Made by a program: the position numbers and the translations under genes. The notes beneath the pieces were generated by a model. That model saw only the letters and a program-made list of their open reading frames with translations, was not told where the DNA came from and did no database searches. A DNA stretch of 64,000 nucleotides from Muricea muricata (taxonomy: Eukaryota; Cnidaria; Anthozoa; Malacalcyonacea; Plexauridae): contig OY979717.1 in the NCBI GenBank assembly GCA_963855995.1, positions 62,001 through 126,000 of the forward strand. The letters run 5' to 3'. Positions 2,960-64,000 of this stretch are shown here, piece after piece (positions within the stretch are counted from its first letter, which is position 1; every line of letters begins with the position of its first letter).

Positions 2960-5900
2960 AAAACGGTATTTAACATTGTCGCTTAAAAAAGAGAGCATAA
3001 CCATGGTGAAATGGACAGAGTATTGTTATAAAAGATGGCTTTGGACATTTGGCGCCCTGGCGGATTTGGACGTTGTTGTCGCCAACATTAACATCCAGTT
3101 GACTGCCTTCGCCTAATATCCACCATCCCTGGCCCGAATTCGAACTGTTAGGGGAGGGTAGAAGCGGCCCCCAGACCATAAGTGCTAAAACCCTGGAATT
3201 CCAGATTCGAATTCGACCATCGATAGTATAGAATCACCGTTTGTATATATGTACGTTAGCCTCTGCTGCTTGCAAAGATTGTGGTGCATTAACACCGCGG
3301 AAACGTGACGTACCATCGCGTCACGCTTTTTGCAATACCTGAATTTAAGAGTCTAGAGGTGCTTAAAAAAATTTTTTTGCATTAATATTATTGTCAATCA
3401 ACCCCAAAAATAACCCTAACACTAACCCTGACCTTAATTATAAAGAAAAAAACTCAAAAAAAAAAACTTTGACTCAAAAGTATAAAATAGACGTCGCCGG
3501 GATTCGAACCCCAAACTGCGGCATGGAAGACATTTACCTTGACCACTACGACACAGCACAACAATCAACAAACCGTGTTTAAAAACGGTATTTAACATTG
3601 TCGCTTAAAAAAGAGAGCATAACCATGGTGAAATGGAAAGAGTATTGTTATAAAAGATGGCTTTGGACATTTGGCGCCCTGGCGGAATTGGACGTTGTTG
3701 TCGCCAACATTAACATCCAATTGACTGCCTTCGCCTAATATCCACCATCCCTGGCCCGAATTCGAACTGTTAGGGGAGGGTAGAAGCGACCCCCAGACCA
3801 TGAGTGCTAAAACCCTGGAATTCCAGATTCGAATTCGACCATCGATAGTATAGAATCACCGTTTGTATATATGTACGTTAGCCTCTGCTGCTTGCAAAGA
3901 TTGTGGTGCATTAACACCGCGGAAACGTGACGTACCATCGCGTCACGCTTTTTGCAATACCTGAATTTAAGAGTCTAGAGGTGCTTAAAAAAATTTTTTT
4001 GCATTAATATTATTGTCAATCAACCCCAAAAATAACCCTAACACTAACCCTGACCTTAATTATAAAGAAAAAAACTCAAAAAAAAAAACTTTGACTCAAA
4101 AGTATAAAATAGACGTCGCCGCGATTCGAACCCCAAACTGCGGCATGGAAGACATTTACCTTGACCACTACGACACAGCACAACAATCACCAAACCGTGT
4201 TTGAAAACGATATTTAACATTGTCGCCTAAAAAGAGAGCATAACCATGGTGAAATTGACCAAGTATTGCTATAAAAGATGGCTTTGGACATTTGGCGCCC
4301 TGGCGGAATTGGACGTTGTTGTCGCCAACATTAACATCCAATTGACTGCCTTTGCCTTGTGTCCACCATCCCTGGCCCGAATTCGAACTGTTAGGGGAGG
4401 GTAGAAGCGGCCACCAGACCATAAGTGCTAAAACCCTGGAATTCCAGATTCGAATTCGACCATCGATAGTATAGAATCACCGTTTGTATATATGTACGTT
4501 AGCCTCTGCTGCTTGCAAAGATTGTGGTGCATTAACACCGCGGAAACGTGACGTACAATCGCGTCACGCTTTTTGCAATACCTGAATTTAAGAGTCTAGA
4601 GGTGCTTAAAAAAATTTTTTTGCATTAATATTATTGTCAATCAACCCCAAAAATAACCCTAACACTAACCCTGACCTTAATTATAAAGAAAAAAACTCAA
4701 AAAAAAAAACTTTGACTCAATAGTATAAAATAGACGTCGCCGGGATTCGAACCCCAAACTGCGGCATGGAAGACATTTACCTTGACCACTACGACACAGC
4801 ACAACAATCACCAAACCGTGTTTGAAAACGGTATTTAACATTGTCGCTTAAAAAAGAGAGCATAACCATGGTGAAATGGACAGAGTATTGTTATAAAAGA
4901 TGGCTTTGGACATTTGGCGCCCTGGCGGATTTGGACGTTGTTGTCGCCAACATTAACATCCAGTTGACTGCCTTCGCCTAATATCCACTATCCCTGGCCC
5001 GAATTCGAACTGTTAGGGGAGGGTAGAAGCGGCCCCCAGACCATAAGTGCTAAAACCCTGGAATTCCAGATTCGAATTCGACCATCGATAGTATAGAATC
5101 ACCGTTTGTATATATGTACGTTAGCCTCTGCTGCTTGCAAAGATTGTGGTGCATTAACACCGCGGAAACGTGACGTACCATCGCGTCACGCTTTTTGCAA
5201 TACCTGAATTTAAGAGTCTAGAGGTGCTTAAAAAAATTTTTTTGCATTAATATTATTGTCAATCAACCCCAAAAATAACCCTAACACTAACCCTGACCTT
5301 AATTATAAAGAAAAAAACTCAAAAAAAAAAACTTTGACTCAAAAGTATAAAATAGACGTCGCCGGGATTCGAACCCCAAACTGCGGCATGGAAGACATTT
5401 ACCTTGACCACTACGACACAGCACAACAATCAACAAACCGTGTTTAAAAACGGTATTTAACATTGTCGCTTAAAAAAGAGAGCATAACCATGGTGAAATG
5501 GAAAGAGTATTGTTATAAAAGATGGCTTTGGACATTTGGCGCCCTGGCGGAATTGGACGTTGTTGTCGCCAACATTAACATCCAATTGACTGCCTTCGCC
5601 TAATATCCACCATCCCTGGCCCGAATTCGAACTGTTAGGGGAGGGTAGAAGCGACCCCCAGACCATGAGTGCTAAAACCCTGGAATTCCAGATTCGAATT
5701 CGACCATCGATAGTATAGAATCACCGTTTGTATATATGTACGTTAGCCTCTGCTGCTTGCAAAGATTGTGGTGCATTAACACCGCGGAAACGTGACGTAC
5801 CATCGCGTCACGCTTTTTGCAATACCTGAATTTAAGAGTCTAGAGGTGCTTAAAAAAATTTTTTTGCATTAATATTATTGTCAATCAACCCCAAAAATAA

Positions 5901-6689
5901 CCCTAACACTAACCCTGACCTTAATTATAAAGAAAAAAACTCAAAAAAAAAAACTTTGACTCAAAAGTATAAAATAGACGTCGCCGCGATTCGAACCCCA
6001 AACTGCGGCATGGAAGACATTTACCTTGACCACTACGACACAGCACAACAATCACCAAACCGTGTTTGAAAACGATATTTAACATTGTCGCCTAAAAAGA
6101 GAGCATAACCATGGTGAAATTGACCAAGTATTGCTATAAAAGATGGCTTTGGACATTTGGCGCCCTGGCGGAATTGGACGTTGTTGTCGCCAACATTAAC
6201 ATCCAATTGACTGCCTTTGCCTTGTGTCCACCATCCCTGGCCCGAATTCGAACTGTTAGGGGAGGGTAGAAGCGGCCACCAGACCATAAGTGCTAAAACC
6301 CTGGAATTCCAGATTCGAATTCGACCATCGATAGTATAGAATCACCGTTTGTATATATGTACGTTAGCCTCTGCTGCTTGCAAAGATTGTGGTGCATTAA
6401 CACCGCGGAAACGTGACGTACAATCGCGTCACGCTTTTTGCAATACCTGAATTTAAGAGTCTAGAGGTGCTTAAAAAAATTTTTTTGCATTAATATTATT
6501 GTCAATCAACCCCAAAAATAACCCTAACACTAACCCTGACCTTAATTATAAAGAAAAAAACTCAAAAAAAAAAACTTTGACTCAAAAGTATAAAATAGAC
6601 GTCGCCGGGATTCGAACCCCAAACTGCGGCATGGAAGACATTTACCTTGACCACTACGATACAGCACAACAATCAACAAACCGTGTTTA
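2960..6689. repeat. two tandem 1,865-bp three-monomer blocks inside the satellite
   Basis: Private variants recur at a spacing of 1,865 bases: GTACAATCGCG at about 4552 and 6417, the GGAAAGAGTATTG variant in the monomers anchored at 3391 and 5256, the GCCGCGATTCG variant in those at 4013 and 5878, and GGATTTGGACG at about 3063 and 4928. The simplest reading is one duplication of three monomers. The outer limits are approximate because flanking monomers are so alike. Confidence 0.8.
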
Positions 6690-9600
6690 AAAACGGTATT
6701 TAACATTGTCGCTTAAAAAAGAGAGCATAACCATGGTGAAATGGACAGAGTATTGTTATAAAAGATGGCTTTGGACATTTGGCGCCCTGGCGGAATTGGA
6801 CGTTGTTGTCGCCAACATTAACATCCAATTGACTGCCTTCGCCTTGTATCCACCATCCCTGGCCCGAATTCGAACTGTTAGGGGAGGGTAGAAGCGGCCC
6901 CCAGACCATGAGTGCTAAAACCCTGGAATTCCAGATTCGAATTCGACCATCGATAGTATAGAATCACCGTTTGTATATATGTACGTTAGCCTCTGCTGCT
7001 TGCAAAGATTGTGGTGCATTAACACCGCGGAAACGTGACGTACCATCGCGTCACGCTTTTTGCAATACCTGAATTTAAGAGTCTAGAGGTGCTTAAAAAA
7101 ATTTTTTTGCATTAATATTATTGTCAATCAACCCCAAAAATAACCCTAACACTAACCCTGACCTTAATTATAAAGAAAAAAACTCAAAAAAAAAAACTTT
7201 GACTCAAAAGTATAAAATAGACGTCGCCGGGATTCGAACCCCAAACTGCGGCATGGAAGACATTTACCTTGACCACTACGACACAGCACAACAATCAACA
7301 AACCGCGTTTAAAAACGGTATTTAACATTGTCGCTAAAAAAAGAGAGCATAACCATGGTGAAATGGACAGAGTATTGTTATAAAAGATGGCTTTGGACAT
7401 TTGGCGCCCTGGCGGAATTGGACGTTGTTGTCGCCAACATTAACATCCAATTGACTGCCTTCGCCTAATATCCACCATCCCTGGCCCGAATTCGAACTGT
7501 TAGGGGAGGGTAGAAGCGGCCCCCAGACCATGAGTGCTAAGACCCTGGAATTCCAGATTCGAATTCGACCATCGATAGTATAGAATCACCGTTTGTATAT
7601 ATGTACGTTAGCCTCTGCTGCTTGCAAAGATTGTGGTGCATTAACACCGCGGAAACGTGACGTACCATCGCGTCACGCTTTTTGCAATACCTGAATTTAA
7701 GAGTCTAGAGGTGCTTAAAAAAATTTTTTTGCATTAATATTATTGTCAATCAACCCCAAAAATAACCCTAACACTAAACCTGACCTTAATTATAAAGAAA
7801 AAAACTCAAAAAAAAAAACTTTGACTCAAAAGTATAAAATAGACGTCGCCGGGATTCGAACCCCAAACTGCGGCATGGAAGACATTTACCTTGACCACTA
7901 CGACACAGCACAACAATCACCAAACCGTGTTTGAAAACGGTATTTAACATTGTCGCTTAAAAAGAGAGCATAACCATGGTGAAATTGACCAAGTATTGCT
8001 ATAAAAGATGGCTTTGGACATTTGGCGCCCTGGCGGAATTGGACGTTGTTGTCGTCAACATTAACATCCAATTGACTGCCTTTGCCTTGTATCCACCATC
8101 CCTGGCCCGAATTCGAACTGTTAGGGGAGGGTAGAAGCGGCCCCCAGACCATAAGTGCTAAAACCCTGGAATTCCAGATTCGAATTCGACCATCGATAGT
8201 ATAGAATCACCGTTTGTATATATGTACGTTAGCCTCTGCTGCTTGCAAAGATTGTGGTGCATTAACACCGCGGAAACGTGACGTACCATCGCGTCACGCT
8301 TTTTGCAATACCTGAATTTAAGAGTCTAGAGGTGCTTAAAAAAATTTTTTTGCATTAATATTATTGTCAATCAACCCCAAAAATAACCCTAACACTAACC
8401 CTGACCTTAATTATAAAGAAAAAAACTCAAAAAAAAAAACTTTGACTCAAAAGTATAAAATAGACGTCGCCGGGATTCGAACCCAAAACTGCGGCATGGA
8501 AGACATTTACCTTGACCACTACGACACAGCGCAACAATCACCAAACCGTGTTTGAAAACGGTATTTAACATTGTCGCTTAAAAAGAGAGCATAACCATGG
8601 TGAAATTGACCAAGTATTGCTATAAAAGATGGCTTTGGACATTTGGCGCCCTGGCGGAATTGGTCGTTGTTGTCGCCAACATTAACATCCAATTCACTGC
8701 CTTCGCCTTGTATCCACCATCCCTGGCCCGAATTCGAACTGTTAGGGGAGGGTAGAAGCGGCCCCCAGACCATAAGTGCTAAAACCCTGGGATTCCAGAT
8801 TCGAATTCGACCATCGATAGTATAGAATCACCGTTTGTATATATGTACGTTAGCCTCTGCTGCTTGCAAAGATTGTGGTGCATTAACACCGCGGAAACGT
8901 GACGTACCATCGCGTCACGCTTTTTGCAATACCTGAATTTAAGAGTCTAGAGGTGCTTAAAAAAATTTTTTTGCATTAATATTATTGTCAATCAACCCCA
9001 AAAATAACCCTAACACTAACCCTGACCTTAATTATAAAGAAAAAAACTCAAAAAAAAAAACTTTGACTCAAAAGTATAAAATAGACGTCGCCGGGATTCG
9101 AACCCCAAACTGCGGCATGGAAGACATTTACCTTGACCACTACGACACAGCACAACAATCAACAAACCGTGTTTAAAAACGGTATTTAACATTGTCGCTT
9201 AAAAAAGAGAGCATAACCATGGTGAAATGGACCAAGTATTGTTATAAAAGATGGCTTTGGACATTTGGCGCCCTGGCGGAATTGGACGTTGTTGTCGCCA
9301 ACATTAACATCCAATTGACTGCCTTCGCCTTGTATCCACCATCCCTGGCCCGAATTCGAACTGTTAGGGGAGGGTAGAAGCGGCCCCCAGACCATAAGTG
9401 CTAAAACCCCGGAATTCCAGATTCGAATTCGACCATCGATAGTATAGAATCTCCGTTTGTATATATGTACGTTAGCCTCTGCTGCTTGCAAAGATTGTGG
9501 TGCATTAACACCGCGGAAACGTGACGTACCATCGCGTCACGCTTTTTGCAATACCTGAATTTAAGAGTCTAGAGGTGCTTAAAAAAATTTTTTTGCATTA

Positions 9601-12600
9601 ATATTATTGTCAATCAACCCCAAAAATAACCCTGACCTTAATTATAAAGAAAAAAACTCAAAAAAAAAAACTTTGACTCAAAAGTATAAAATAGACGTCG
9701 CCGGGATTCGAACCCCAAACTGCGGCATGGAAGACATTTACCTTGACCACTACGACACAGCACAACAATCAACAAACCGCGTTTAAAAACGGTATTTAAC
9801 ATTGTCGCTAAAAAAAGAGAGCATAACCATGGTGAAATGGACAGAGTATTGTTATAAAAGATGGCTTTGGACATTTGGCGCCCTGGCGGAATTGGACGTT
9901 GTTGTCGCCAGCATTAACATCCAATTGACTGCCTTCGCCTAATATCCACCATCCCTGGCCCGAATTCGAACTGTTAGGGGAGGGTAGAAGCGGCCCCCAG
10001 ACCATAAGTGCTAAAACCCTGGAATTCCAGATTCGAATTCGACCATCGATAGTGTAGAATCACCGTTTGTATATATGTACGTTAGCCTCTGCTGCTTGCA
10101 AAGATTGTGGTGCATTAACACCGCGGAAACGTGACGTACCATCGCGTCACGCTTTTTGCAATACCTGAATTTAAGAGTCTAGAGGTGCTTAAAAAAATTT
10201 TTTTGCATTAATATTATTGTCAATCAACCCCAAAAATAACCCTAACACTAACCCTGACCTTAATTATAAAGAAAAAAACTCAAAAAAAAACAACTTTGAC
10301 TCAAAAGTATAAAATAGACGTCGCCGGGATTCGAACCCCAAACTGCGGCATGGAAGACATTTACCTTGACCACTACGACACAGCACAACAATCACCAAAC
10401 CGTGTTTGAAAACGGTATTTAACATTGTCGCTTAAAAAGAGAGCATAACCATGGTGAAATTGACCAAGTATTGCTATAAAAGATGGCTTTGGACATTTGG
10501 CGCCCTGGCGGAATTGGACGTTGTTGTCGTCAACATTAACATCCAATTGACTGCCTTTGCCTTGTATCCACCATCCCTGGCCCGAATTCGAACTGTTAGG
10601 GGAGGGTAGAAGCGGCCCCCAGACCATAAGTGCTAAGACCCTGGAATTCCAGATTCGAATTCGACCATCGATAGTATAGAATCACCGTTTGTATATATGT
10701 ACGTTAGCCTCTGCTGCTTGCAAAGATTGTGGTGCATTAACACCGCGGAAACGTGACGTACCATCGCGTCACGCTTTTTTCAATACCTGAATTTAAGAGT
10801 CTAGAGGTGCTTAAAAAAATTTTTTTGCATTAATATTATTGTCAATCAACCCCAAAAATAACCCTAACACTAACCCTGACCTTAATTATAAAGAAAAAAA
10901 CTCAAAAAAAAAAAACTTTGACTCAAAAGTATAAAATAGACGTCGCCGGGATTCGAACCCCAAACTGCGGCATGGAAGACATTTACCTTGACCACTACGA
11001 CACAGCACAACAATCACCAAACCGTGTTTGAAAACGGTATTTAACATTGTCGCTTAAAAAGAGAGCATAACCATGGTGAAATTGACCAAGTATTGCTATA
11101 AAAGATGGCTTTGGACATTTGGCGCCCTGGCGGGATTGGACGTTGTTGTCGCCAACATTAACATCCAATTGACTGCCTTCGCCTAATATCCACCATCCCT
11201 GGCCCGAATTCGAACTGTTAGGGGAGGGTAGAAGCGGCCCCCAGACCATAAGTGCTAAAACCCTGGAATTCCAGATTCGAATTCGACCATCGATAGTATA
11301 GAATCACCGTTTGTATGTATGTACGTTAGCCTCTGCTGCTTGCAAAGATTGTGGTGCATTAACACCGCGGAAACGTGACGTACCATCGCGTCACGCTTTT
11401 TGCAATACCTGAATTTAAGAGTCTAGAGGTGCTTAAAAAAATTTTTTTGCATTAATATTATTGTCAATCAACCCCAAAAATAACCCTAACACTAACCCTG
11501 ACCTTAATTATAAAGAAAAAAACTCAAAAAAAAAACTTTGACTCAAAAGTATAAAATAGACGTCGCCGGGATTCGAACCCCAAACTGCGGCATGGAAGAC
11601 ATTTACCTTGACCACTACGACACAGCACAACAATCAACAAACCGCGTTTAAAAACGGTATTTAACATTGTCGCTAAAAAAAGAGAGCATAACCATGGTGA
11701 AATGGACAGAGTATTGTTATAAAAGATGGCTTTGGACATTTGGCGCCCTGGCGGAATTGGACGTTGTTGTCGCCAACATTAACATCCAATTGACTGCCTT
11801 CGCCTAATATCCACCATCCCTGGCCCGAGTTCGGACTGTTAAGGGGGGGGTAGAAGCGGCCCCCAGACCATAAGTGCTAAAACCCTGGAATTCCAGATTC
11901 GAATTCGACCATCGATAGTATAGAATCACCGTTTGTATGTATGTACGTTAGCCTCTGCTGCTTGCAAAGATTGTGGTGCATTAACACCGCGGAAACGTGA
12001 CGTACCATCGCGTCACGCTTTTTGCAATACCTGAATTTAAGAGTCTAGAGGTGCTTAAAAAAATTTTTTTGCATTAATATTATTGTCAATCAACCCCAAA
12101 AATAACCCTAACACTAACCCTGACCTTAATTATAAAGAAAAAAACTCAAAAAAAAAAACTTTGACTCAAAAGTATAAAATAGACGTCGCCGGGATTCGAA
12201 CCCCAAACTGCGGCATGGAAGACATTTACCTTGACCACTACGACACAGCACAACAATCAACAAACCGCGTTTAAAAACGGTATTTAACATTGTCGCTAAA
12301 AAAAGAGAGCATAACCATGGTGAAATGGACAGAGTATTGTTATAAAAGATGGCTTTGGACATTTGGCGCCCTGGCGGAATTGGACGTTGTTGTCGCCAAC
12401 ATTAACATCCAATTGACTGCCTTCGCCTTGTATCCACCATCCCTGGCCCGAGTTCGGACTGTTAGGGGGGGGGTAGAAGCGGCCCCCAGACCATAAGTGC
12501 TAAAACCCTGGAATTCCAGATTCGAATTCGACCATCGATAGTATAGAATCACCGTTTGTATGTATGTACGTTAGCCTCTGCTGCTTGCAAAGATTGTGGT

Positions 12601-15600
12601 GCATTAACACCGCGGAAACGTGACGTACCATCGCGTCACGCTTTTTGCAATACCTGAATTTAAGAGTCTAGAGGTGCTTAAAAAAATTTTTTTGCATTAA
12701 TATTATTGTCAATCAACCCCAAAAATAACCCTAACACTAACCCTGACCTTAATTATAAAGAAAAAAACTCAAAAAAAAAAACTTTGACTCAAAAGTATAA
12801 AATAGACGTCGCCGGGATTCGAACCCCAAACTGCGGCATGGAAGACATTTACCTTGACCACTACGACACAGCACAACAATCACCAAACCGTGTTTGAAAA
12901 CGGTATTTAACATTGTCGCTTAAAAAGAGAGCATAACCATGGTGAAATTGACCAAGTATTGCTATAAAAGATGGCTTTGGACATTTGGCGCCCTGGCGGA
13001 ATTGGACGTTGTTGTCGCCAACATTAACATCCAATTGACTGCCTTCGCCTAATATCCACCATCCCTGGCCCAAATTCGAACTGTTAGGGGAGGGTAGAAG
13101 CGGCCCCCAGACCATGAGTGCTAAGACCCTGGAATTCCAGATTCGAATTCGACCATCGATAGTATAGAATCACCGTTTGTATATATGTACGTTAGCCTCT
13201 GCTGCTTGCAAAGATTGTGGTGCATTAACACCGCGGAAACGTGACGTACCATCGCGTCACGCTTTTTGCAATACCTGAATTTAAGAGTCTAGAGGTGCTT
13301 AAAAAAATTTTTTTGCATTAATATTATTGTCAATCAACCCCAAAAATAACCCTAACACTAACCCTGACCTTAATTATAAAGAAAAAAACTCAAAAAAAAA
13401 AACTTTGACTCAAAAGTATAAAATAGACGTCGCCGGGATTCGAACCCCAAACTGCGGCATGGAAGACATTTACCTTGACCACTACGACACAGCACAACAA
13501 TCAACAAACCGCGTTTAAAAACGGTATTTAACATTGTCGCTAAAAAAAGAGAGCATAACCATGGTGAAATGGACAGAGTATTGTTATAAAAGATGGCTTT
13601 GGACATTTGGCGCCCTGGCGGAATTGGACGTTGTTGTCGCCAACATTAACATCCAATTGACTGCCTTCGCCTTGTATCCACCATCCCTGGCCCGAGTTCG
13701 GACTGTTAGGGGAGGGTAGAAGCGGCCCCCAGAACATAAGTGCTAAAACCCTGGAATTCCAGATTCGAATTGGACCATCGATAGTATAGAATCACCGTTT
13801 GTATATATGTACGTTAGCCTCTGCTGCTTGCAAAGATTGTGGTGCATTAACACCGCGGAAACGTGACGTACCATCGCGTCACGCTTTTTGCAATACCTGA
13901 ATTTAAGAGTCTAGAGGTGCTTAAAAAAATTTTTTTGCATTAATATTATTGTCAATCAACCCCAAAAATAACCCTAACACTAACCCTGACCTTAATTATA
14001 AAGAAAAAAACTCAAAAAAAAAAACTTTGACTCAAAAGTATAAAATAGACGTCGCCGGGATTCGAACCCCAAACTGCGGCATGAAAGACATTTACCTTGA
14101 CCACTACGACACAGCACAACAATCACCAAACCGTGTTTGAAAACGGTATTTAACATTGTCGCTTAAAAAGAGAGCATAACCATGGTGAAATTGACCAAGT
14201 ATTGCTATAAAAGATGGCTTTGGACATTTGGCGCCCTGGCGGAATTGGACGTTGTTGTCGCCAACATTAACATCCAATTGACTGCCTTCGCCTTGTGCCC
14301 ACCATCCCTGGCCCGAGTTCGAACTGTTAGGGGAGGGTAGAAGCGGCCCCCAGACCATAAGTGCTAAAACCCTGGGATTCCAGATTCGAATTCGACCATC
14401 GATAGTATAGAATCACCGTTTGTATATATGTACGTTAGCCTCTGCTGCTTGCAAAGATTGTGGTGCATTAACACCGCGGAAACGTGACGTACCATCGCGT
14501 CACGCTTTTTGCAATACCTGAATTTAAGAGTCTAGAGGTGCTTAAAAAAATTTTTTTGCATTAATATTATTGTCAATCAACCCCAAAAATAACCCTAACA
14601 CTAACCCTGATCTTAATTATAAAGAAAAAAACTCAAAAAAAAAAACTTTGACTCAAAAGTATAAAATAGACGTCGCCGGGATTCGAACCCCAAACTGCGG
14701 CATGGAAGACATTTACCTTGACCACTACGACACAGCACAACAATCACCAAACCGTGTTTGAAAACGGTATTTAACATTGTCGCTTAAAAAGAGAGCATAA
14801 CCATGGTGAAATTGACCAAGTATTGCTATAAAAGATGGCTTTGGACATTTGGCGCCCTGGCGGAATTGGGCGTTGTTGTCGCCAACATTAACGTCCAATT
14901 GACTGCCTTCGCCTTGTATCCACCATCCCTGGCCCGAATTCGAACTGTTAGGGGAGGGTAGAAGCGGCCCCCAGACCATAAGTGCTAAAACCCTGGGATT
15001 CCAGATTCGAATTCGACCATCGATAGTATAGAATCACCGTTTGTATATATGTACGTTAGCCTCTGCTGCTTGCAAAGATTGTGGTGCATTAACACCGCGG
15101 AAACGTGACGTACCATCGCGTCACGCTTTTTGCAATACCTGAATTTAAGAGTCTAGAGGTGCTTAAAAAAATTTTTTTGCATTAATATTATTGTCAATCA
15201 ACCCCAAAAATAACCCTAACACTAACCCTGACCTTAATTATAAAGAAAAAAACTCAAAAAAAAAAACTTTGACTCAAAAGTATAAAATAGACGTCGCCGG
15301 GATTCGAACCCCAAACTGCGGCATGGAAGACATTTACCTTGACCACTACGACACAGCACAACAATCACCAAACCGTGTTTGAAAACGGTATTTAACATTG
15401 TCGCTTAAAAAGAGAGCATAACCATGGTGAAATGGACCAAGTATTGCTATAAAAGATGGCTTTGGACATTTGGCGCCCTGGCGGAATTGGACGTTGTTGT
15501 CGCCAACATTAACATCCAATTGACTGCCTTCGCCTAATATCCACCATCCCTGGCCCGAATTCGAACTGTTAGGGGAGGGTAGAAGCGGCCCCCAGACCAT

Positions 15601-16221
15601 AAGTGCTAAAACCCTGGAATTCCAGATTCGAATTCGACCATCGATAGTATAGAATCACTGTTTGTATATATGTACGTTAGCCTCTGCTGCTTGCAAAGAT
15701 TGTGGTGCATTAACACCGCGGAAACGTGACGTACCATCGCGTCACGCTTTTTGCAATACCTGAATTTAAGAGTCTAGAGGTGCTTAAAAAAATTTTTTTG
15801 CATTAATATTATTGTCAATCAACCCCAAAAATAACCCTAACACTAACCCTGACCTTAATTATAAAGAAAAAAACTCAAAAAAAAAAACTTTGACTCAAAA
15901 GTATAAAATAGACGTCGCCGGGATTCGAACCCCAAACTGCGGCATGGAAGACATTTACCTTGACCACTACGACACAGCACAACAATCACCAAACCGTGTT
16001 TAAAAACGGTATTTAACATTGTCGCTTAAAAAAGAGAGCATAACCATGGTGAAATGGACAGAGTATTGTTATAAAAGATGGCTTTAGACATTTGGCGCCC
16101 TGACAGAATTGGACGTTGTTGTCGCCAACATTAACATCCAATTGACTGCCTTCGCCTAATGTCCACCATCCCTGGCCCGAATTCGAACTGTTAGGGGAGG
16201 GTAGAAGCGGCCCCCAGACCA

Positions 16222-18790
16222 TGAGTGCTAAAACCCTGGAATTCCAGATTCGAATCCAACCATCGATAGTATAGAATCACCGTTTGTATATATGTACGTT
16301 AGCCTCTGCTGCTTGCAAAGATTGTGGTGCATTAACACCGCGGAAACGTGACGTACCATGGCGTCACGGTTTTTGCAATACCTGAATTTAAGAGTCTAGA
16401 GGTGCTTAAAAAAATTTTTTTTGCATTAATATTATTGTCAATCAACCCCAAAAATAACCCTAACACTAACCCTGACCCTAATTATAAAGAAAAAAACTCA
16501 AAAAAAAAACAACTTTGACTCAAAAGTATAAAATAGACGTCGCCGGGATTCGAACCCCAAACTGCGGCATGGAAGACATTCACCTTGACCACTGCGACAC
16601 AGCACAACAATCAACAAACCGTGTGTGAAAACGGTATTTAACATTGTCGCTTAAAAAAGAGAGCATAACCATGGTGAAATGGACCAAGTATTGCTATAAA
16701 AGATGGCTTTGAAAACGGTATTTAACATTGTCGCTTAAAAAAGAGAGCATAACCATGGGGAAATGGACCAAGTATTGTTATAAAAGATGGCTTTGGACAT
16801 TTGGCGCCCTGACAGAATTGGACGTTGTTGTCGCCAACATTAACATCCAATTGACTGCGTTCGCCTAATATCCACCATCCCTGGCCCGAATTCGAACTGT
16901 TAGGGGAGGGTAGAAGCGGCCCCCAGACCATGAGTGCTAAAACCCTGGGATTCCAGATTCGAATCCAAGCATCGATAGTATAGAATCACCGTTTGTATAT
17001 ATGTACGTTAGCCTCTGCTGCTTGCAAAGATTGTGGTGCATTAACACCGCGGAAGCGTGACGTACCATGGCGTCACGGTTTTTGCATTACCTGAATTTAA
17101 GAGTCTAGAGGTGCTTAAAAAATTTTTTTTGCATTAATATTATTGTCAATCAACCCCAAAAATAACCCTAACACTAACCCTGACCCTAATTATAAAGAAA
17201 AAAACTCAAAAAAAAAAATTGACTCAAAAGTATAAAATAGACGTCGCCGGGATTCGAACCCCAAACTGCGGCATGGAAGACACTCACCTTGACCACTACG
17301 ACACAGCACAAAAATTAACAAACCGTGTTTGAAAACGGTATTTAACATTGTCGCTTAAAAAAGAGAGCATAACCATGGTGAAATGGACCAAGAATTGCTA
17401 TAAAAGATGGCTTTGAAAACGGTATTTAACATTGTCGCTTAAAAAAGAAAGCATAACCATGGTGAGATGGACCAAGTGTTGTTATAAAAGATGGCTTTGG
17501 ACATTTGGCACCCTGACAGAATTGGACGTTGTTGTCGCCAATGTTAACATCCAATTGACTGCCTTCGCCTAATATCCACCATCCCTGGCCCGAATTCGAA
17601 CTGTTAGGGGAGGGTAGAAGCGGCCCCCAGACCATGAGTGCTAAAACCCTGGAATTCCAGATTCGAATTCGACCATCGATAGTATAGAATCACCGTTTGT
17701 ATATATGTACTTTAGCCTCTGCTGCTTGCAAAGATTGTGGTGCATTAACACCGCGGAAACGTGACGTACCATGGCGTCACGCTTTTTGCAATACCTGAAT
17801 TTAAGAGTCTAGAGGTGCTTAAAAAAATTTTTTTTGCATTAATATTATTGTCAATTAACCCCAAAAATAACCCTAACACTAACCCTGACCCTAATTATAA
17901 AGAAAAAAACTAAAAAAAAAACTTTGACTCAAAAGTATAAAATAGACGTCGCCGGATTCGAACCCCAAACTGCGGCATGGAAGACATTCACCTTGACCAC
18001 TACGACACAGAACAACAATCAACAAATCAACAAGAGAGCATAACCATGGTGAAATAAACCAAGTATTGCTATAAAAGATGGCTTTGAAAACGGTATTTAA
18101 CATTGTCGCTTAAAAAAGAGAGCATAACCATGGTGAAATGGACCAAGTATTGTTTTAAAAGATGGCTTTGGACATTTGGCGCCCTGACAGAATTGGACGT
18201 TGTTGTCGAACCATTAACATCCAATTGACTGCTTTCGCCTAATATCCACCATCCCTGGCCCGAATTCGAGCTGTTAGGGGAGGGTAGAAGCGGCTTCCAG
18301 ACCATGAGTTCTAAAACCCTGGAATTCCAGATTCGAATTCGACAATCGATAATATATAATCACCGTTTGTATATATGTACGTTAGCCTCTGCTGCTTGCA
18401 AAGATTGTGGTGCATTAACACCGCGGAAACGTGACGTACCATGGCGTCACGGTTTTTGCAATACCTGAATTTAAGAGTCTAGAGGTGCTTAAAAAAATTT
18501 CTTTTGCATTAATATTATTGTCAATCAACCCCAAAAATAAGCCTAACACTAACCCTGACCTTAATTATAAAGAAAAAAACTCAAAAAAAAAAACTTTGAC
18601 TCAAAAGTATAAAATAGACGTCGCCGGTATTCGTACCCCAAACTGCGGCATGGAAGACATTCACCTTGACCACTACGACACAGCACGTACAACAATCAAC
18701 AAACCGTGTTTGAAAACGGTATTTAACATTGTCGCTTTAAAAAGAGAGCATAACCATGGTGAAATGGACCAAGTATTACTATAAAAGATG
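16222..18790. repeat. diverged right-edge monomers with an internal 84-bp duplication
   Basis: The last monomers carry more substitutions than the interior ones, for example CCATGGCGTCACGG in place of CCATCGCGTCACGC. Two contain a tandem duplication of about 84 bp starting GAAAACGGTATTTAAC (copies begin at 16627 and 16711, and at 17331 and 17415). A third (near 18033-18085) keeps only the second half of the extra copy. The final monomer lacks the duplication and is cut at 18790. Edge decay of this type is known from other satellite arrays. Confidence 0.85.
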
Positions 18791-55685: not shown

Positions 55686-55815
55686 TTTTACAGAGTTTCT
55701 TCAAGAGTGAACAAACAATTGATGAAGTTGTCAGCTTGAATTCGAAAATTGTGATTGCATGTATGGTTGCTCTCTACACTGTTAAAATACGCTGTTTCAT
55801 GATCATGTTTTAAAC

Positions 55816-56045
55816 GAGATAATCTAATCTTCGCGCCTCGCGCCTTTTCTTCGCGCCTCGCGCCTTTCTTTCGCGCCTCGCGCCTTTTCTTCGCGCGTCG
55901 CGCCTTTTTTCGCGCCTTTTTTTCGCGCCTTTTTTTCGCGCCTTTTTTTCGCGCCTTTTTTCGCGGCTTACTTTTCATGCTTTTTTTTTCGTGCGTTTTT
56001 TCTGCCGTTTTTCCCGCGCCTTATCCCCGGCCTCGCGTTTTTTTT
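55816..56045. repeat. CGCGCC/TTTT simple repeat at the array end
   Basis: Alternating T-rich runs and CGCGCCTCGCGCC or CGCGCC blocks, fading into TTTTTTTTCGTGCG. It is much richer in CpG than anything nearby. It begins exactly where homology of unit 5 to the other units stops. The minus-strand Lys/Arg/Ala-rich frame of 96 codons across it is a low-complexity artefact. Confidence 0.85.
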
Positions 56046-56125
56046 GCTAAAAGTTCATTAAATTATTCTTGAAAATTGCCATCATCATCTTTTAATGTAT
56101 AGGGAGAAAGAAACTTGCTAAACAA

Positions 56126-56653
56126 GTGACTCTACTATTATTCATTAACTGGAACGATAACTCGGCAATAAAGCCATTTGAACTAAGGAAAGCAATTTAT
56201 AACTCTTTTATTACTCCTCACGATAACTACTGTGCTGAAACATGGCACTTCTGTAGTAAGAGCTCACTAAATAAATTAGAAAAAGTAAACGAACGTGCTA
56301 TACGCTTTGTTTTTAAAGACAAAAATACTCCATATTGCGATTTATTAAAGCAGCTAGGTAGAGCAACATTGGCTGAGGAACGAGCTCATAAAATACTTGG
56401 AACCATTTTTAAAATATTGCACGGATCATGTCCAGTTAGTATCCGTGATCTAATACAATGTAGAATTTCAGCTTATAACTTAAGAGGAAAAGATATTCTT
56501 AAACTACCTAAGGTAAATACCACAAAATATGGGCTTGAATCGTGGAGATACTACGGCCCTAAATTGTGGAATAGCCTGCCAGATAGTGTCAAGTCTTTGG
56601 CCACTTATGCAGCATTTAGGAAAGCATTAGTAAACATTGAATTAGAACTGTAA
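56126..56653 (+). CDS. 5'-truncated non-LTR retrotransposon ORF2, C-terminal part
   Basis: A stop-free frame of 175 codons. From about residue 17 it matches the region after the catalytic domain of CR1/Jockey/L2-like reverse transcriptases: LRKAIYNSFITPHDNYCAETW (family form LYNSF..PHFNYC), LNKLEKVNERAIRFV, YNLRGKDILKLP, then GLESWRYYGPKLWNSLP and a short tail after a typical VKSL..FRKAL helix. The catalytic domain and endonuclease are missing upstream, so the copy is a 5'-truncated insertion, the usual result of target-primed reverse transcription. It starts at GTG only because no stop intervenes; there is no real start codon. The uninterrupted frame and complete 3' end suggest it is younger than its neighbours. 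Confidence 0.8.
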   Translation: MTLLLFINWNDNSAIKPFELRKAIYNSFITPHDNYCAETWHFCSKSSLNKLEKVNERAIRFVFKDKNTPYCDLLKQLGRATLAEERAHKILGTIFKILHGSCPVSIRDLIQCRISAYNLRGKDILKLPKVNTTKYGLESWRYYGPKLWNSLPDSVKSLATYAAFRKALVNIELEL

Positions 56654-56784
56654 AATATTTAGTTATATTATTTTTTATTAATTAGGTAGTAGTTAGGTGG
56701 CATACCTGTAAAATAGCTGTATGGCTAAGTGTATTGTCCACGTTAATAAATTTTTGAAATTTTGAAATTTGAATTTTGAAAGCC
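56654..56784 (+). mobile_element. 3' UTR and tail of the preceding retroelement
   Basis: About 100 bases follow the stop, then GTTAATAAATTTTTG and a (TTGAAAT)-type tail ending near 56780. This places the element's 3' end just before AGCCGTTTTTTC. Confidence 0.6.
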
Positions 56785-57034
56785 GTTTTTTCACTGGCAA
56801 ATTTTTGTCGCGCAAGTCTTCTATCTTATAAGCTCTCAACTAGGAAAAATTAGATTCTTAATTAATAGTTCATTTCAATTTGAGTAGAACCGTACACATG
56901 TCACATCGCGCGAAAGTAATCGCCAGCAAAAAATCGGCTTATGAATACTGTGTATTACTTATGAATACTGTCCAATGTCATATGTCATTAGTCAAATGTC
57001 TGAAAATAACATAGAATAAAAAAGTACAAAATTA

Positions 57035-57045
57035 GGGGGGGGGGG
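57035..57045. repeat. G11 homopolymer
   Basis: Eleven consecutive G. A matching run of 12 G is at 61749-61760. Between 56785 and 57059 nothing else was recognised. Confidence 0.9.
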
Positions 57046-57059
57046 TTACCCCTGATTAA

Positions 57060-57689
57060 TTAAAGTCTGATTATGAACAGTTATATGATTATTTTGTTTC
57101 AAATAATTTGCTATCCGATCATCAATTTGGTTTTAGACAGTTTCACTCCACAGCATCAACCCTTTTAGATAGCACAAATGAGTGGCTTAGTTAATATGGA
57201 CCGTTGTGAAATTAATATTGCAGTATTTCTAGACTTAAAAAAAGCTTTTGATACGATAAATCACGATATTCTTTTAAAGAAACTTGAAAGGTATGGCGTG
57301 GGATCACCAGTGTTGAATCTTTTAAGAAATTACCTAACAGACAGAACTTAGATGTGCTCAGTAAATGGCGTATTGTCCTGTTCAAAAACAGTTGCGTGTA
57401 GTGTTCCTCAAGGCACGACTTGGTCCACTTCTATTCTTAATTTACATAAACGATTTACCAGGTAGTTTGGGGTTTTCGTCGGCAAGAATGTTTGCTGATG
57501 ATACTACATTAACTGCCTCTGGTGAATCAGTTCTAGATGCTGAGGTGGCCATCAATCATGACCTTGCAAATATCAAACAATGTCTCTCAGCAAATAAATT
57601 ATCACTAAATCTTGTCAAAACTGAGTATTTATTAATCGGATCAAGGCATAACATAAATAACTTATTTCATGCTCCCAAAGTGCATGCTG
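57060..57689 (+). pseudogene. non-LTR reverse transcriptase, catalytic domain, frameshifted
   Basis: Three frame segments read through a reverse transcriptase domain: first KSDYEQLYDYFVSNN and SDHQFGFRQFHSTAS; then, after a frameshift near 57190, AVFLDLKKAFDTINHDIL (motif A with its catalytic Asp) and VPQG; then, after another shift near 57413, LGPLLFLIYINDLPGSL and FADDTTL (the catalytic ADD box), followed by the thumb-side segment LSANKLSLNLVKTEYLLIG. There is also an in-frame TAG after NYLTDRT. Reverse transcription of element RNA was its ancestral job; this copy is dead. It stops being recognisable at 57689, immediately before the TA flanking the Foldback-like element. The last 270 bases recur at 63550-63819 with about four differences. 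Confidence 0.85.
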
Positions 57690-57990
57690 TAGTACTCACT
57701 CTTAAGCGCTTAAGATAATATTCTCCCTCTCCAAAATGCATGGTTACATAAATGTAGTTGTATACAAGACCGAATTTTGGGAGAGGTGCGCGCCTCCTCT
57801 GGGAATAAGAGAGGTGCACACCTTCCCAAAAAAACCCCACATTCCCTTACAATTTCTCCAAAATCTGGCCTTGGTTATATGTTAACTCGGTTTTTGCATG
57901 CATGCCACTTGATTTCTTATCTTTACTTCAAAGTTCAAATGGTCATTGTGGCCATGCATGTGTCTTTAGTATTGGAAAATGTTAATTATA

Positions 57991-59710
57991 AGGATTGAAA
58001 TTATTGTTTTCAGAGATTTTATGACTTTGGTTAAATAGGAACAAATTTTGTCATTGTTTAACCAAGCCTATTATTACACGAATTATTATGTATTTAGTGT
58101 TTGAAAATGTTATTATAAGGATTGAAATTATTGTCGTTTTCAGAGATTTTATGACCGGTTGAATAGGAACAAATCTTGTCATTATTTAACCAAGCCTATT
58201 ATTACACGAATTATTATGTGTTTAGTGTTTGAAAATGTTATTATAAGGATTGAAATTATTGTTTTCAGAGATTTTACGACTTTGGTTAAATAGGAACAAA
58301 TTTTGCCATTATTTAACCAAGCCTATTATTACACGAATTATTATGTATTTAGTGTTTGAAAATGTTATTATAAGGATTGAAATTATTGTTTTCAGAGATT
58401 TTATAACTTTGATTAAATATGTACAAATTTTGTCATTATTTAACCAAGCCCATTATTACACGAATTATTGTGTCTTTAATGTTTAAAAATGTTATTATAA
58501 GGATTGAAGTTACTGTTTTCAGAGATTTTATAAGTTTGGTTAAATATGTACAAATTTTGTCATTATTTAACCAAGCCTATTATTACACGAATTATTTGGT
58601 CTTTAATGTTTAAAAATGTTATTATAAGGATTGAAGTTACTGTTTTCAGAGATTTTATAACTTTGATTAAATATGTACAAGTTTTGTCATTATTTAACCA
58701 AGCCCATTATTACACGAATTATTGTGTCTTTAATGTTTAAAAATGTTATTATAAGGATTGAAGTTACTGTTTTCAGAGATTTTATAACTTTGGTTAAATA
58801 TGTACAAATTTTGTCAATGTTTAACCAAGCCCATTATTACACGAATTATTTTGTCTTTAATGTTTAAAAATGTTATTATAAGGATTGAAGTTACTGTTTT
58901 CAGAGATTTTATAACTTTGGTTAAATATGTACAAATTTGGTCATTGATTAACCAAGCCCATTATTACACGAATTATTGTGTCTTTAGTGTTGGAAAATGT
59001 TATTATAAGGATTGAAGTTACTGTTTTCAGAGATTTTATAACTTTGGTTAAATATGTGCAAATTTGGTCATTGTTTAACCAAGCCCATTATTACACGAAT
59101 TATTGTGTCTTTAGTGTTGGAAAATGTTATTATAAGGATTGAAGTTACTGTTTTCAGAGATTTTATAACTTTGGTTAAATATGTACAAATTTTGTCATTG
59201 TTTAACGAAGCTATTGTTACACGAATTATTGTGTCTTTAGTGTTGGAAAATGTTGTTGTAAGGGCTGCTGTTAGCGCTGTATTGTTTTCAGAGATTTTAT
59301 GAGTTTGGTTAAACATGATCAAATTTTGTCATTATTTAACCAAGCCTATTATTACACGAATTATTGTACCTTTAGTGTTTGAAAATGTTATTATAAGGAT
59401 TGAAGTTACTGTTTTCAGAGATTTTATAACTTTGGTTAAATATGTGCAAATTTGGTCATTGTTTAACCAAGCCCATTATTACACGAATTATTGTGTCTTT
59501 AGTGTTGGAAAATGTTATTATAACGATTGAAGTTACTGTTTTCAGAGATTTTATAACTTTGGTTAAATATGTACAAATTTTGTCATTGTTTAACGAAGCT
59601 ATTATTACACGAATTATTGTGTCTTTAGTGTTGGAAAATGTTGTTGTAAGGGCTGCTGTTAGCGCTGTATTGTTTTCAGAGATTTTATGACTTTGATTAA
59701 ACATGATCAA
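57991..59710 (+). repeat. 127-bp tandem repeats, left arm
   Basis: About 13.5 repeats with shared blocks GTTATTATAAGGATTGAA, TTTTCAGAGATTTTAT, TTAACCAAGCC and ATTACACGAATTATT. Spacing is 127 in the regular part (for example 58419, 58546, 58673, 58800). Two longer variants contain GGGCTGCTGTTAGCGCTGTA near 59262 and 59650. Overlapping frames of 64-84 codons are products of the repeat. Confidence 0.9.
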
Positions 59711-60560
59711 TAATTCGTGTAATAATAGGCTTGGTTAAATAATGACAAAATTTGATCATGTTTAACCAAACTCATAAAATCTCTGAAAACAATACAGCAG
59801 CCGTTATAATAACATTTTCCAACACTAAAGACACAATAATTCGTGCAATAATAGGCTTGGCTAAATAATCACAAAAATTGTTCCTATTCAACCAAAGTCA
59901 TAAAATCTCTGAAAACAATAATTTCAATCCTTATAATAACATTTTCAAACACTAAATACATAATAATTCGTGTAATAATAGGCTTGGTTAAATAATGACA
60001 AAATTTATACCTATTTAACCAAAGTCATAAAATCTCTGAAAACAATAATTTCAATCCTTATAATAACATTTTCCAACACTAAAGACACAATAATTCGTGT
60101 AATAATAGGCTTGGTTAAATAATGACAAAATTGATCATGTTTAACCAAACTCATAAAATCTCTGAAAACAGTAATTTCAATCCTTATAATAACATTTTCC
60201 AACACTAAAGACACAATAATTCGTGTAATAATAGGCTTGGTTAAATAATGACAAAATTTGTTCCTATTTAACCAAAGTCGTAAAATCTCTGAAAACAATA
60301 CAGCAGCCCTTATAATAACATTTTTAAACATTAAAAACACAATAATTCGTGCAATAATAGGCTTGGTTAAATAATCACAAAATTTGTTCCTATTCAACCA
60401 GTCATAAAATCTCTGAAAACGACAATCATTTCAATCCTTATAATAACATTTTCAAACACTAAATACATAATAATTCGTGTAATAATAGGCTTGGTTAAAC
60501 AATGACAAAATTTGTTCCTATTTAACCAAAGTCATAAATTCTCTGAAAACAATAATTTCA
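59711..60560 (-). repeat. 127-bp tandem repeats, right arm (inverted)
   Basis: About 6.7 copies of the left-arm repeat in reverse orientation. The switch of orientation falls at ATGATCAATAATTCGTG near 59705. The right arm has half as many repeats as the left, showing independent expansion or loss. Confidence 0.9.
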
Positions 60561-62780
60561 ATCCTTATAATAACATTTTCCAATACTAAAGACACATGCA
60601 TGGCGACAATGACCATTTGAACTTTGAAGTAAAGATAAGAAATCAAGTGGCATGCATGCAAAAACCGAGTTAACATATAACCAAGGCCAGATTTTGGAGA
60701 AATTGTAAGGGAATGTGGGGTTTTTTTGGGAAGGTGTGCACCTCTCTTATTGCCAGAGGAGGCGCGCACCTCTCCCAAAATTCGGTCTTGTATACAACTA
60801 CATTTATGTAACCATGCTTTTGGAGAGGGAGAATATTATCTTAAGCGCTTAAGAGTGAGTACTAGGCTAGTAGCGAGAAAAAGGTATGTTGAAAATTGAA
60901 TAATATATGTATGAGGTTAGCAAAAATATATGGTACATGCACTGTTTTTCGTAATAAGATTATTATATTGTATTTTGATTTATAAATAAATCTGAACACA
61001 AGATAAGAAGAAATTATTTATTAAATTCTATTATTAACAAAAACCGTATTCGTTTGACTAATTACGGTATATTTAGTATAAGATAAATGAACATTTAATT
61101 AGACCTGATTTTGACTAGCAAGATGAACATAAGCACACGGTTAAAAAACAAAGAAATCAACAGTACCGAAATGTGCGTCGGAACAAAAACAAATTTTAAA
61201 GAAAATTCTTTCAGCATTTTTTCGCAAAATTCACTGGAAACGTTATCCCTTTTTATTTTACTGATGCTCATGCTGCCAACAAAAACCAGGTCATATGCGT
61301 AGTATACTGGCGAGTACACAAGCCAAAGTTTATAACGAATTTGAAAGAGAAATGTCAATTAATTGACGATTTTATGAACACTTTCATGGTTCGTGGATAT
61401 GACGTCGTATATTAGCATAGAACATGAGAGACTGGCACGTATCCAGTTGCACATCTGTTTATCCTTAATGCATGGCTTTACAGCACATCCATTGTGTGTC
61501 TTTTTAAAGTTCCTTTCTTTTCCTAAAACAGCTTCCAGACGTTTTGTTGGAATTTATGTTGTGCATTTTCGTGGATGACTGAATTGTCCAAATATGACTG
61601 TGCAGGCCAGATCCTTTGGAGAATGCATACTTTACAGGACTGAAATGTTGGTCCGGCCAAACAATATTTACCATGCAGGCAATTGTGTGAATTTGTTTCT
61701 CAGCCTCAGAGACTAAAAATAATTATCAAATATTAATTACTGATAATTGGGGGGGGGGGGATGGGTGCATGCTCATATATTTCCATTCTGCACAATCTCT
61801 GCACAGACTAAATCTCATGAAGTTTTTCAAACGTTTTTTATGCCGCAGGTTTAGCTGCTAGAATGATGGCATTGTCACAGCCAAGGAGACGAAAACATAT
61901 AGGTCCCAACATGAGTGAGACTTATTGTTGGCTATTCTCTACTAATACTGAAGTTCCAAAGTATATAGTGACCAAACATTACAAAAGATTTCTGATTAAA
62001 TAAACATTAAACTTCTATGGATGGCTAGATACTGTTAACTTAACCTTAATAAGACAGTTACTGAATGTTGCAAAAAGATGGCATGGGCAGAAGAATAGTA
62101 TACAGGGAGTGATAAAAAATAGTCCACTTAACTAGCTTATTTTCAAACTAGCCACAGTCGGTTGCATTATTTTCACATTTTCAAATGTTTCAAACAACAG
62201 TCTTGTACCCACAAGAAATCAATAATGTTGATTGTTCGAAAGTTTTCATGTTTATTGCAGCCCAATACTGTATCTTGGCTGTGCAGTACAAACAATCCAC
62301 TTTGATAGGAAGTCAGATACTGTAGACTGATGACCTAGACTGGAAAGTATCGCTGTTTTTAACAAGATCTCGGGTTTCAAAAATTTCAAATGTACAGTGT
62401 GCAAACCTGTGTCAAATGCACTTCCGTGTGCATGTTAGATACCTAGCACTGGCCATATTCACCATATTCAGTATGAAGCCAAGTATGCAAACCTGAACAC
62501 AACAAAAATTCTTGAGTGGCTAGTTGCCATACTTTCCAGACCATACCAGCTGATTACAAAATAAAGTCAAAAGAGACTTACTTGTGGGTTTTATATAGGA
62601 CTATAATTGTAGGTTGAATACAATCTCGAATTTTTACCTGCCTGTTTGCCATCACATGATCACTACATGCAATGAATTACTAACCTTCGTGACTAGACAG
62701 ACAATACTTATTATTTAAAGTACAGTGCTTCATAAAGATTTGCAGCACTGATAAATTGATAATCTCAAATGTGAGATCAT

Positions 62781-62878
62781 GACATGTGAAAATTATCGCT
62801 TTTCAAACAATCAACTAATAGCTTCTGGATGTTTTATATTAGTAGAAAACACTGTAGTTTATATAATAAACAGAAAAA
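62781..62878 (-). repeat. diverged inverted copy of a segment of the 7.5-kb unit
   Basis: On the minus strand this reads TTTCTGTTTATTATATAAAC, then CTAATATAAAACATCC, GATTGTTTGAAAAGCGATAA and TTTTCACATGTC. It aligns with 19992-20091 of unit 1 (TTTCTGTTTATTATATAAAC, CCAATATAAAATATCC, GATTGTTTGAAAGGCAATAA, TTTTCACATGTG). It is a dispersed repeat family predating the 7.5-kb array. Confidence 0.75.
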
Positions 62879-63494
62879 TACATGGTGCTAGGAAATGCCC
62901 TCGTTCGCTGCACTCACTCTTAGGATATCATGTTCAACACTCGAAATAAATCTGGTATCTCTGCGACTCCGCGCACCATTTTAATATTATTAATATCATC
63001 CAATATCCGTACGTATATTAAACTGGTGAAATTCATAAACAAACCACGTAGTCGTACAGTCTGTACTCAGAAAAAATATTACCAATTCTATTTACCTCGC
63101 TACTTTCCGTCGATTCATGAATATTCAAGCCCTCATTATTAGAAAGCTCATCCATATCTAATGCATATCATCCAATATCTTCCATATTCATATTTTGACT
63201 CTTGTTAAAAAAGGAAGCCATGCTGAAATTACTTACCAGTACCTTTGATTGCGTTTAGCTTAGTAACCATGCCTTGGTTTCTGTTGTTGGTTTTTGAACA
63301 AATTTTGTCTGAAATAATACCTCTTTTATCTTAACCAACGCTGTGCCAATATCGTCTTTCATTTCAGTAACCTATTTCCTAATATTAAACTGAAAACCAC
63401 ATGCAGCTGCTTCCATGCCAACTGTGAATAGAGCCGGATTGATGACAGCTTTACCTGTTAAATTTGTTGGAATTAGGCATAATTGCATCCGGAG

Positions 63495-63517
63495 AAACGC
63501 ACAAATTTTGTGCGTTT
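63495..63517. other. 23-bp perfect palindrome
   Basis: Arms AAACGCACAAA and TTTGTGCGTTT separated by one T. It lies about 33 bases before the breakpoint at which the second reverse transcriptase fragment begins. Confidence 0.8.
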
Positions 63518-63549
63518 GACAACTTTTTTGGGCCGTGCGGATTCTCATG

Positions 63550-64000
63550 TTGGTCCACTTCTATTCTTATATTACATAAACGATTTACGAGGTAGTTTGG
63601 GGTTTTCGTCGGCAAGATTGTTTGCTGATGATACTACATTAACTGCCTCTGGTGAATCAGTTCTAGATGCTGAGGTGGCCATCAATCATGACCTTGCAAA
63701 TATCAAACAATGTCTCTCAGCAAATAAATTATCACTAAATCTTGTCAAAACTGAGTATTTATTAATCGGATCAAGGCATAACATAAATAACTTATTTCAT
63801 GCTCCCAAAGTGCATGTTGGTGACATGCCAATCAAAAGGGTGGAAGAAACAAAGGCACTTGGAGTCTATATTGATGAATATTTATCTTGGAATAAGCACA
63901 TTGAAATATTTCGAAGAAAATCTCATCCGGCATCGGGGCGGTCAGGAAACTAAAGCCTCATGTTGATCATAATATGTTAATATGTGCTTACAATGCACTA
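63550..64000 (+). pseudogene. non-LTR reverse transcriptase fragment, cut by window end
   Basis: Begins abruptly inside motif B (GPLLFLYYINDL), then FADDTTL (catalytic ADD box), LSANKLSLNLVKTEYLLIG, RVEETKALGVYIDEYLSWNKH. Near 63910 one A seems to be missing: the frame shifts from HIEIF to ISKKISSGIGAVRKLKPHVD, which continues to the window edge as NMLICAYNAL. The first 270 bases match 57420-57689 at about 98%, and this copy shows what the other would have contained beyond its breakpoint. The 5' half of the domain is missing. Confidence 0.85.

Follow-up and report, generated by a model that had tools for sequence, protein, structure and literature searches.

The window analysed here is a 64,000-nucleotide stretch of the anthozoan Muricea muricata (GenBank assembly GCA_963855995.1, contig OY979717.1, positions 62,001 to 126,000 of the forward strand), near the right end of which lies a 3.17-kb palindrome (57692-60862) that an earlier note had described as a foldback-like element inserted at a TA target site. 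We found that this palindrome forms the central part of two longer transposons dispersed through the genome, and that one of the two appears to have copied it from the other. The first, element 1, is a non-autonomous foldback transposon with 7-bp target duplications, and the second, element 2, has 9-bp duplications and is probably Mutator-like, an assignment drawn mainly from its ends and duplications. We think it likely that the palindromic core of element 1 was caught inside element 2, with capture followed by half-doubling and movement in trans.

In the window, 57692-60862 is a palindrome almost without a spacer, and the earlier description of its anatomy was correct. The outer arm domains of about 270 bp (57692-57960 on the plus strand and 60590-60864 on the minus strand, the latter including TA at 60863-60864) are near-identical, with just two substitutions and a single 1-bp gap between them, and behind them stand tandem arrays in opposite orientation. 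The left array of 127-bp units (57959-59651, plus strand) has a period of 127 and 13.3 copies by Tandem Repeats Finder, with 14 anchors of which the final one extends into the centre, and the right array (59708-60596, minus strand) has a period of 126 and 7.0 copies, in line with the approximately 13.5 and 6.7 copies noted before. The inverted match between the tips has no mismatch over the 45 bp that run inward from 57692 or over the two bases TA outward, so the exact inverted repeat stands as claimed, while 57692 and 60862 are not true ends. Allowing up to 3 mismatches, the terminal 20-mer occurs in the window only at 57692-57711 (plus) and 60843-60862 (minus), with a shuffle expectation of 0.00. 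Unit 1 is 130 bp long in both arms, unit 2 of each arm carries an identical 2-bp loss, and unit 3 of each arm contains ACGAC, a base change common to both. As the first three units of one arm thus have positional counterparts in the other, the two arms represent one inverted duplication; the 99% identity of units 9 and 10 to units 12 and 13 in the left arm is a later local duplication. The palindrome centre (59675-59787) has the junction ATGATCA/ATAATTCGTG, in either orientation, in most copies read. Rfam gave no match at gathering score anywhere in the window.

We searched for other copies, as the earlier note had suggested, in the window's own assembly (453,007,491 bp, in which the window is C2:62001-126000), and observed the terminal 20-mer at 223 places (106 + 117) compared to 7 (3 + 4) for the reversed control. 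The tip followed by flank A, the right flank in the window, was present at 171 places, and the tip followed by flank B, the left flank in the window with its reverse-transcriptase fragment, at 41, each with a control of 0; bare tip, tip plus A and tip plus B are three separate pattern counts, not matched place by place, and the latter two sum to 212 against 223 bare tips. Sixteen of the 41 B places pair by position into 8 B/B pairs. When reading 20 further copies, picked as plus/minus pairs from the 100 exact tip places listed and thus not a random sample, we observed conserved flank A or B outside the TA in every one. TA is present at all 40 of their outer tips because flank kinds A and B both carry it, and since the conserved flanks continue beyond it on both sides in 20 of 20 copies, TA is internal arm sequence instead of a target duplication and the boundaries previously set at 57692 and 60862 do not hold; the real ends have 7-bp or 9-bp duplications. 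An independent foldback element of 3.17 kb that used TA as a Tc1/mariner-type target agrees with the TA that borders the palindrome left and right in the window but is practically negligible as an explanation given the 40 of 40 tips of the 20 other copies within longer conserved arms, the pattern counts (arm A follows the tip at 171 places and arm B at 41, for 223 bare tips), and the LINE (long interspersed nuclear element) relative at 63550, which has no TA at the corresponding place. No TA target duplication of Tc1/mariner type was thus found, and a separate TA-targeting Foldback family is not supported. An inverted repeat starting at CTCACTC with TA at 57694 was rejected on the same copies that ruled out TA ends.

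The Foldback layout itself was borne out, in that the core belongs to a large family of many copies, the two tandem-repeat arms differing in length independently of each other, and long inverted arms with variable internal tandem repeats are present in all 21 copies including the window (13 A/A, 7 A/B and 1 B/B by flank type). In the copies read the core consists of an outer domain, roughly 4 to 31 units per arm run and a common centre; L010 has one lone unit next to an insert, and in L019 the left A piece is just 95 bp, after which 127-bp units begin again. The centre is rearranged in L026, extended in L027 and altered by one base at the junction in L019, the others having the junction given above or its complement. 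Longer stretches matching neither core nor flank occur in L010, L014 and L026; the L010 stretch is similar by eye to a Penelope-type element, and L014 and L026 seem to contain nested insertions. Additional arm segments, joined via the first 309 bp of A, are present in L009, L015, L025 and L026. Relative to the end reading GAGG, the orientation of the centre judged by eye is alike in L014, L016-L022 and L028 and reversed in L009, L010 and the window, and the core may thus be able to invert between the two arms. Exact tips on the three largest contigs, C1-C3 (about 256 Mb), account for 17 of the 100 places listed, and tips are seemingly denser on the smaller contigs C4-C10. Two sequence patterns had no exact match in viral and prokaryote contigs (exact patterns only), and 57500-61200 had no blastn match in plasmids. 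As copies lie on many contigs with distinct duplications, an assembly artefact is unlikely.

Element 1 is built of two long inverted arms, each comprising domain A of about 2.46 kb, the 270-bp outer domain and roughly 4 to 31 127-bp units, around a single common centre. In the window arm A occupies 60865-63323, about 2.46 kb from tip to terminus, and the terminus (63289-63323) reads GAGGTATTATTTCAGACAAAATTTGTTCAAAAACC inward on the minus strand. The usual pair of ends is CAGATATT.../GAGGTATT..., with termini in most copies read of CAGATATTATTTCAGAC at one side and GAGGTATTATTTCAGAC opposite, and the terminus pattern occurs at 79 + 74 places genome-wide (control 0 + 0). Nine distinct copies were read with both ends and flanks, the TTTTATC site being counted once, and seven of them have an exact 7-bp target duplication (AAAATCC, AGCAATC, CCGGAGG, CGCGGTT, GCAGACG, CTTTTCG and TTTTATC) compared to 1 of 72 mispaired ends; 7 bp is also the duplication length of Galileo, a member of the P superfamily. 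Both ends were not obtained for L014, L021, L022 and L027, and several element 1 copies at the TTTTATC site have the same flanks. Five copies span 7.2 to 15.2 kb end to end, and three further stretches (L099-L101) have foldback arms and no transposase frame. We also noted, at the A-arm position of window 63297, an insert of about 650 bp with an 8-bp overlap, GTTTTTGA, in C7:4068k, C8:1434k and C9:12341k; known from coordinates alone, it is probably a hAT-like element. What looks like the beginning of an insert is present at that base in the left arm of L021 too, where a second 8-mer was not seen, and in L029, the left side of L027, arm A is broken roughly 623 bp from the tip by a large insert whose reverse transcriptase is DIRS-like by eye.

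Element 2 ends read GAGATARTCTAAT..., and its GAGATARTCTAATYTTCGCGCC termini carry 20-bp tandem repeats and were found outward of arm B and also of an extended form of arm A. The terminus occurs at 50 + 58 places genome-wide (control 0 + 0), and its start, GAGATAAT, resembles that of maize Mu. We sought the ends in 14 copies: L009, L023, five B/B copies, five with the longer arm A on one side and B on the other (A-long/B), and the core-less L094 and L095. A duplication of exactly 9 bp was present in all nine copies with both ends, including L009 (9,342 bp), L023 (6,474 bp, one end shortened) and five of five B/B copies tested for both ends, compared to 0 of 72 mispaired ends. Both this length, which lies within the 8-11 bp described for Mutator-like elements (MULEs) (PMC6446971), and long terminal inverted repeats, here about 240-300 bp with 20-bp tandem repeats, are those of a MULE.

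In the window element 2 begins directly after the last unit of an approximately 7.5-kb tandem array. The presumed left target duplication, GTTTTAAAC (55807-55815), belongs to that final unit, and another unit reads GTTTTAAAC followed by ATACTTG; it is a predicted duplication, as its right partner is absent from the window, where the right end has been lost. The terminal inverted repeat follows at 55816-56067 (plus strand; inner limit approximate), with GAGATAATCTAATC and then 20-bp TCTTCGCGCCTCGCGCCTTT repeats. Arm B, the internal part of a 2.4-kb Mutator-like element including the LINE reverse-transcriptase fragment, occupies 56779-57689 (plus strand), and a LINE 3' fragment is inserted in it at 56180-56778 (plus strand). 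That fragment is present at 5 of 40 scored places, and at the other 35 its sides adjoin with about 10 bp of overlap, the outer piece being complete at 33 of these and partial at 2. The five places are all near contig starts, three on C2 and one each on C3 and C12, and the fragment is a marker of exchange between those regions. Pfam found nothing on the LINE piece at 56096, and on the piece at 63483 it found RVT_1 with E 6e-6, under its curated cut-off. Four A-long/B copies (among L048-L055; on C5, C10, C13 and C16) have identical outside flanks, accacaaacatagtacc, and look like dispersed segmental duplicates.

The proposed capture can be seen by comparison with L095, a 2,449-bp core-less element 2 with the duplication GATTTCGTT. 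Its LINE is uninterrupted by the block, and the window has two copies (57420-57689 and 63550-63819, plus strand, 98% identical) of its bases 1011-1280, which are single in L095, with everything between the two 270-bp copies (57690-63549) foreign to L095. Element 2 resumes with the right copy and continues as LINE to the window end (63550-64000, plus strand), the homology to L095 running on to 64357, outside the window. The foreign block opens at capture junction 1 with TA (57690-57691), which forms the first two bases of the captured arm and is not a target duplication, and continues with tip, core, arm A, terminus, TTTTATC (63324-63330) and about 220 bp of a flank (63331-63549) that is also found at element 1's own TTTTATC site; TTTTATC would be the 7-bp target duplication of the captured element 1 at its donor site. 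In L093 this flank goes on without the LINE, and donor-type sites having both element 1 ends with matching TTTTATC flanks are present at C2:45010k and C4:16990k. Two of the 40 scored places, C5:226k (99%) and C3:11167k (97%), match up to 57689 and have no tip. Simple transposition of the core into the LINE at 57689 was ruled out, as the right flank is not the continuation of the LINE.

The block at 57690-63549, standing inside element 2 between 270-bp direct repeats, is best read as a template-switch capture. During replication or gap repair of the 2.4-kb LINE-carrying element 2, synthesis would have switched at GCATGTTG into one element 1 arm, continued through the core and arm A into about 220 bp of host flank, and returned 270 bp upstream, which would leave the direct repeat around the block. 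Such a course fits template switching as proposed for Pack-TIRs (PMC8277862); as in Pack-TIRs and Pack-MULEs, copied internal sequence occurs together with distinct duplications (different 9-mers in L009 and six B/B copies), and the copying step itself is putative. We regard it as improbable that the arrangement arose in two steps, with a whole element 1 inserting in or next to the LINE of element 2 and later losing its left A arm while the LINE was rearranged: element 1 copies with both ends do exist and A-arm deletions occur (L016, L017), but neither the approximately 220 bp of donor flank following TTTTATC, a site that exists elsewhere with both element 1 ends and flanks, nor the 270-bp direct repeat around the block is explained by simple insertion.

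The B/B copies are bounded left and right by element 2 ends and, in the six of eight pairs that were read, by 9-bp duplications that arose independently, indicating that they move as units. The palindromic core may let one half be copied onto the other, by fold-back template switch or inverted recombination, which would give rise to the B/B copies and to one copy with GAGG at both ends and mirrored outside flanks (C6:11056k), seemingly a comparable product in which the opposite half was doubled. The arms of L023 are 99.2% identical over 1,157 bp. Unequal exchange would alter the number of 127-bp units, and the element 2 transposase would move B/B copies in trans. That 9-bp and 7-bp duplications occur independently from site to site speaks against the core being a satellite-like module which segmental duplication and ectopic recombination have dispersed instead of transposition, an alternative that we hold to be very unlikely despite the outside flanks common to some copies (the four A-long/B copies with accacaaacatagtacc and several element 1 copies at the TTTTATC site) and the five places near contig starts with the extra LINE insertion. 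A broader proposal, which we offer tentatively and rather doubt, is that the core is a transferable 'mirror' that, copied into any transposon, lets one half be copied onto the other. If so, a chimera would turn into a foldback of complete symmetry whose ends are identical and on which the host transposase could act, and foldback architecture would spread between unrelated transposon superfamilies besides evolving separately in each.

A candidate transposase for the movement of B/B copies is encoded by core-less relatives of element 2. In L094 (7,128 bp), which has no core, a SWIM zinc finger is present in one of several reading frames, and its central frame recurs at 98-99% identity at four more loci (C1:16061k, C1:70509k, C3:18291k and C4:8499k), each within an element 2 end pair 7.6-8.7 kb apart. 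The frame is open for 657 amino acids in three of the four and for 479 in C4. The five best protein matches, 98-100% identical, are inside five element 2 end pairs 7.1-8.7 kb apart. We infer that the four loci are core-less from there being no tip among the exact places listed, a 3.8-kb part of one of them (L097) having been read. The SWIM domain (PF04434), often present in MULE-type DDE transposases and here the one Pfam domain detected, scored E 3.7e-5 and 1.3e-4, above the Pfam cut-off, and searches of solved structures and NCBIfam returned no match to the protein. Of the transposase-encoding relative anticipated in the earlier note, then, one was found for the outer 9-bp element and none for a TA element.

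Several observations weigh against this account of a core captured by a Mutator-like element. Five of the 14 element 2 copies tried, all A-long/B, were without both ends, and the right end of the window copy is lost, so that there is no right 9-bp duplication to compare. The Pfam MULE domain PF10551 does not detect the element 2 transposase, and among 103 PF10551 places listed in the genome none coincides with it; hhalign of a profile of seven relatives against seven PF10551 MULEs of the same genome gave a modest result, probability 48% and E 1.8e-4, in an alignment that by eye lines up both aspartates and the CxxH. Junction 1 (GTGCATGTTG/TAGTACTC) is without microhomology, and junction 2 shares just 2 bp, TT. 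L095 could in principle derive from recombination between the 270-bp repeats and not be a precursor; its identity to L009 is 93.6-94.5%, compared to 97-100% for B-arm places among the 40 scored, which argues against a recent loss of the block and allows for an old one. A transposase for element 1 was not found, and two of the nine element 1 copies have no matching 7-mer, L020 having unmatched flanks and C6:11056k a single flank mirrored on both sides. Likeness of arms within copies is also mixed: over 500 bp the A arms are at least 93.8% identical in 9 of 13 A/A copies and lower in L017 (88.2%), L019 (62.2%), L024 (92.6%) and L028 (76.4%), and some arms are closer to another copy than to their own partner (L018 right, 99.2% vs 93.8%). 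Mean A-arm identity is 92.5% within copies vs 85.6% between them, and for the 270-bp outer domain 95.0% vs 93.7%; L016 has the same deletion in both arms.

In the remainder of the window, positions 1-18790 form a tandem array of approximately 622-bp units with the tRNA-like string GGGATTCGAACCCC on one strand; the units are about 97% alike in the first part and longer later on. The approximately 7.5-kb array (18784-55815) comprises five copies about 99% identical, each with a TATAGGTAC-type minisatellite and 328-bp repeats and most also with CCCTAAATAA arrays.

The repeated rise of foldback transposons in different superfamilies is an old question, to which these elements add one palindromic core inside two transposons that differ in their ends and in target-duplication length. 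Since a single genome contains the chimera and its symmetric forms together with a site of donor type and a recipient-type copy that is uninterrupted, capture and half-doubling become directly examinable, and TA beside an exact inverted repeat proves to be weak evidence for a target duplication. Foldback form within TA-type families is known from C. elegans Tc4 and Tc6, whose target site differs from that of the elements here, and the P element makes target duplications of 8 bp. Partial literature listings, consisting of titles and abstract openings, revealed no Mutator-like element with a core derived from a different foldback transposon, which is no proof of absence.

The closest known systems, as described in the available portions of the cited papers, each resemble part of what we observed. 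Galileo, of the P superfamily, likewise has 7-bp duplications, long repetitive arms and changes in arm length, and its chimeric copies with non-matching 7-mers may be compared with L020, whereas no transposase or THAP protein is tied to element 1 and the element 1 copies read are all arm, the likeness being one of description (PMC3573991). Tetris, a non-autonomous foldback transposon of Drosophila virilis with outer ends in common with DAIBAM, resembles element 1 in having a flanking domain and then long tandem repeats (about 220 bp in Tetris) in each terminal inverted repeat; it has 8-10 bp duplications and a middle domain, in contrast to the 7-bp duplications of element 1, its lack of a spacer and the movement of its core into a second transposon (PMC4079207). 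Element 2 in turn is similar to the Tm1 Mutator/Foldback elements, which have 9-bp duplications, variable short tandem repeats in their termini and separate transposase-encoding members, and which differ by inspection in a repeat of 13-15 bp vs 20 bp in element 2 and are without a captured foldback core (PMC3169594). Finally, the Pack-TIR/FoSTeST model, including Drosophila FB4, invokes a template switch at a foldback that yields a chimera transposing with 9-10 bp duplications; there the foldback captures host sequence, whereas here half a foldback and its flank appear to have been captured by another transposon (PMC8277862).

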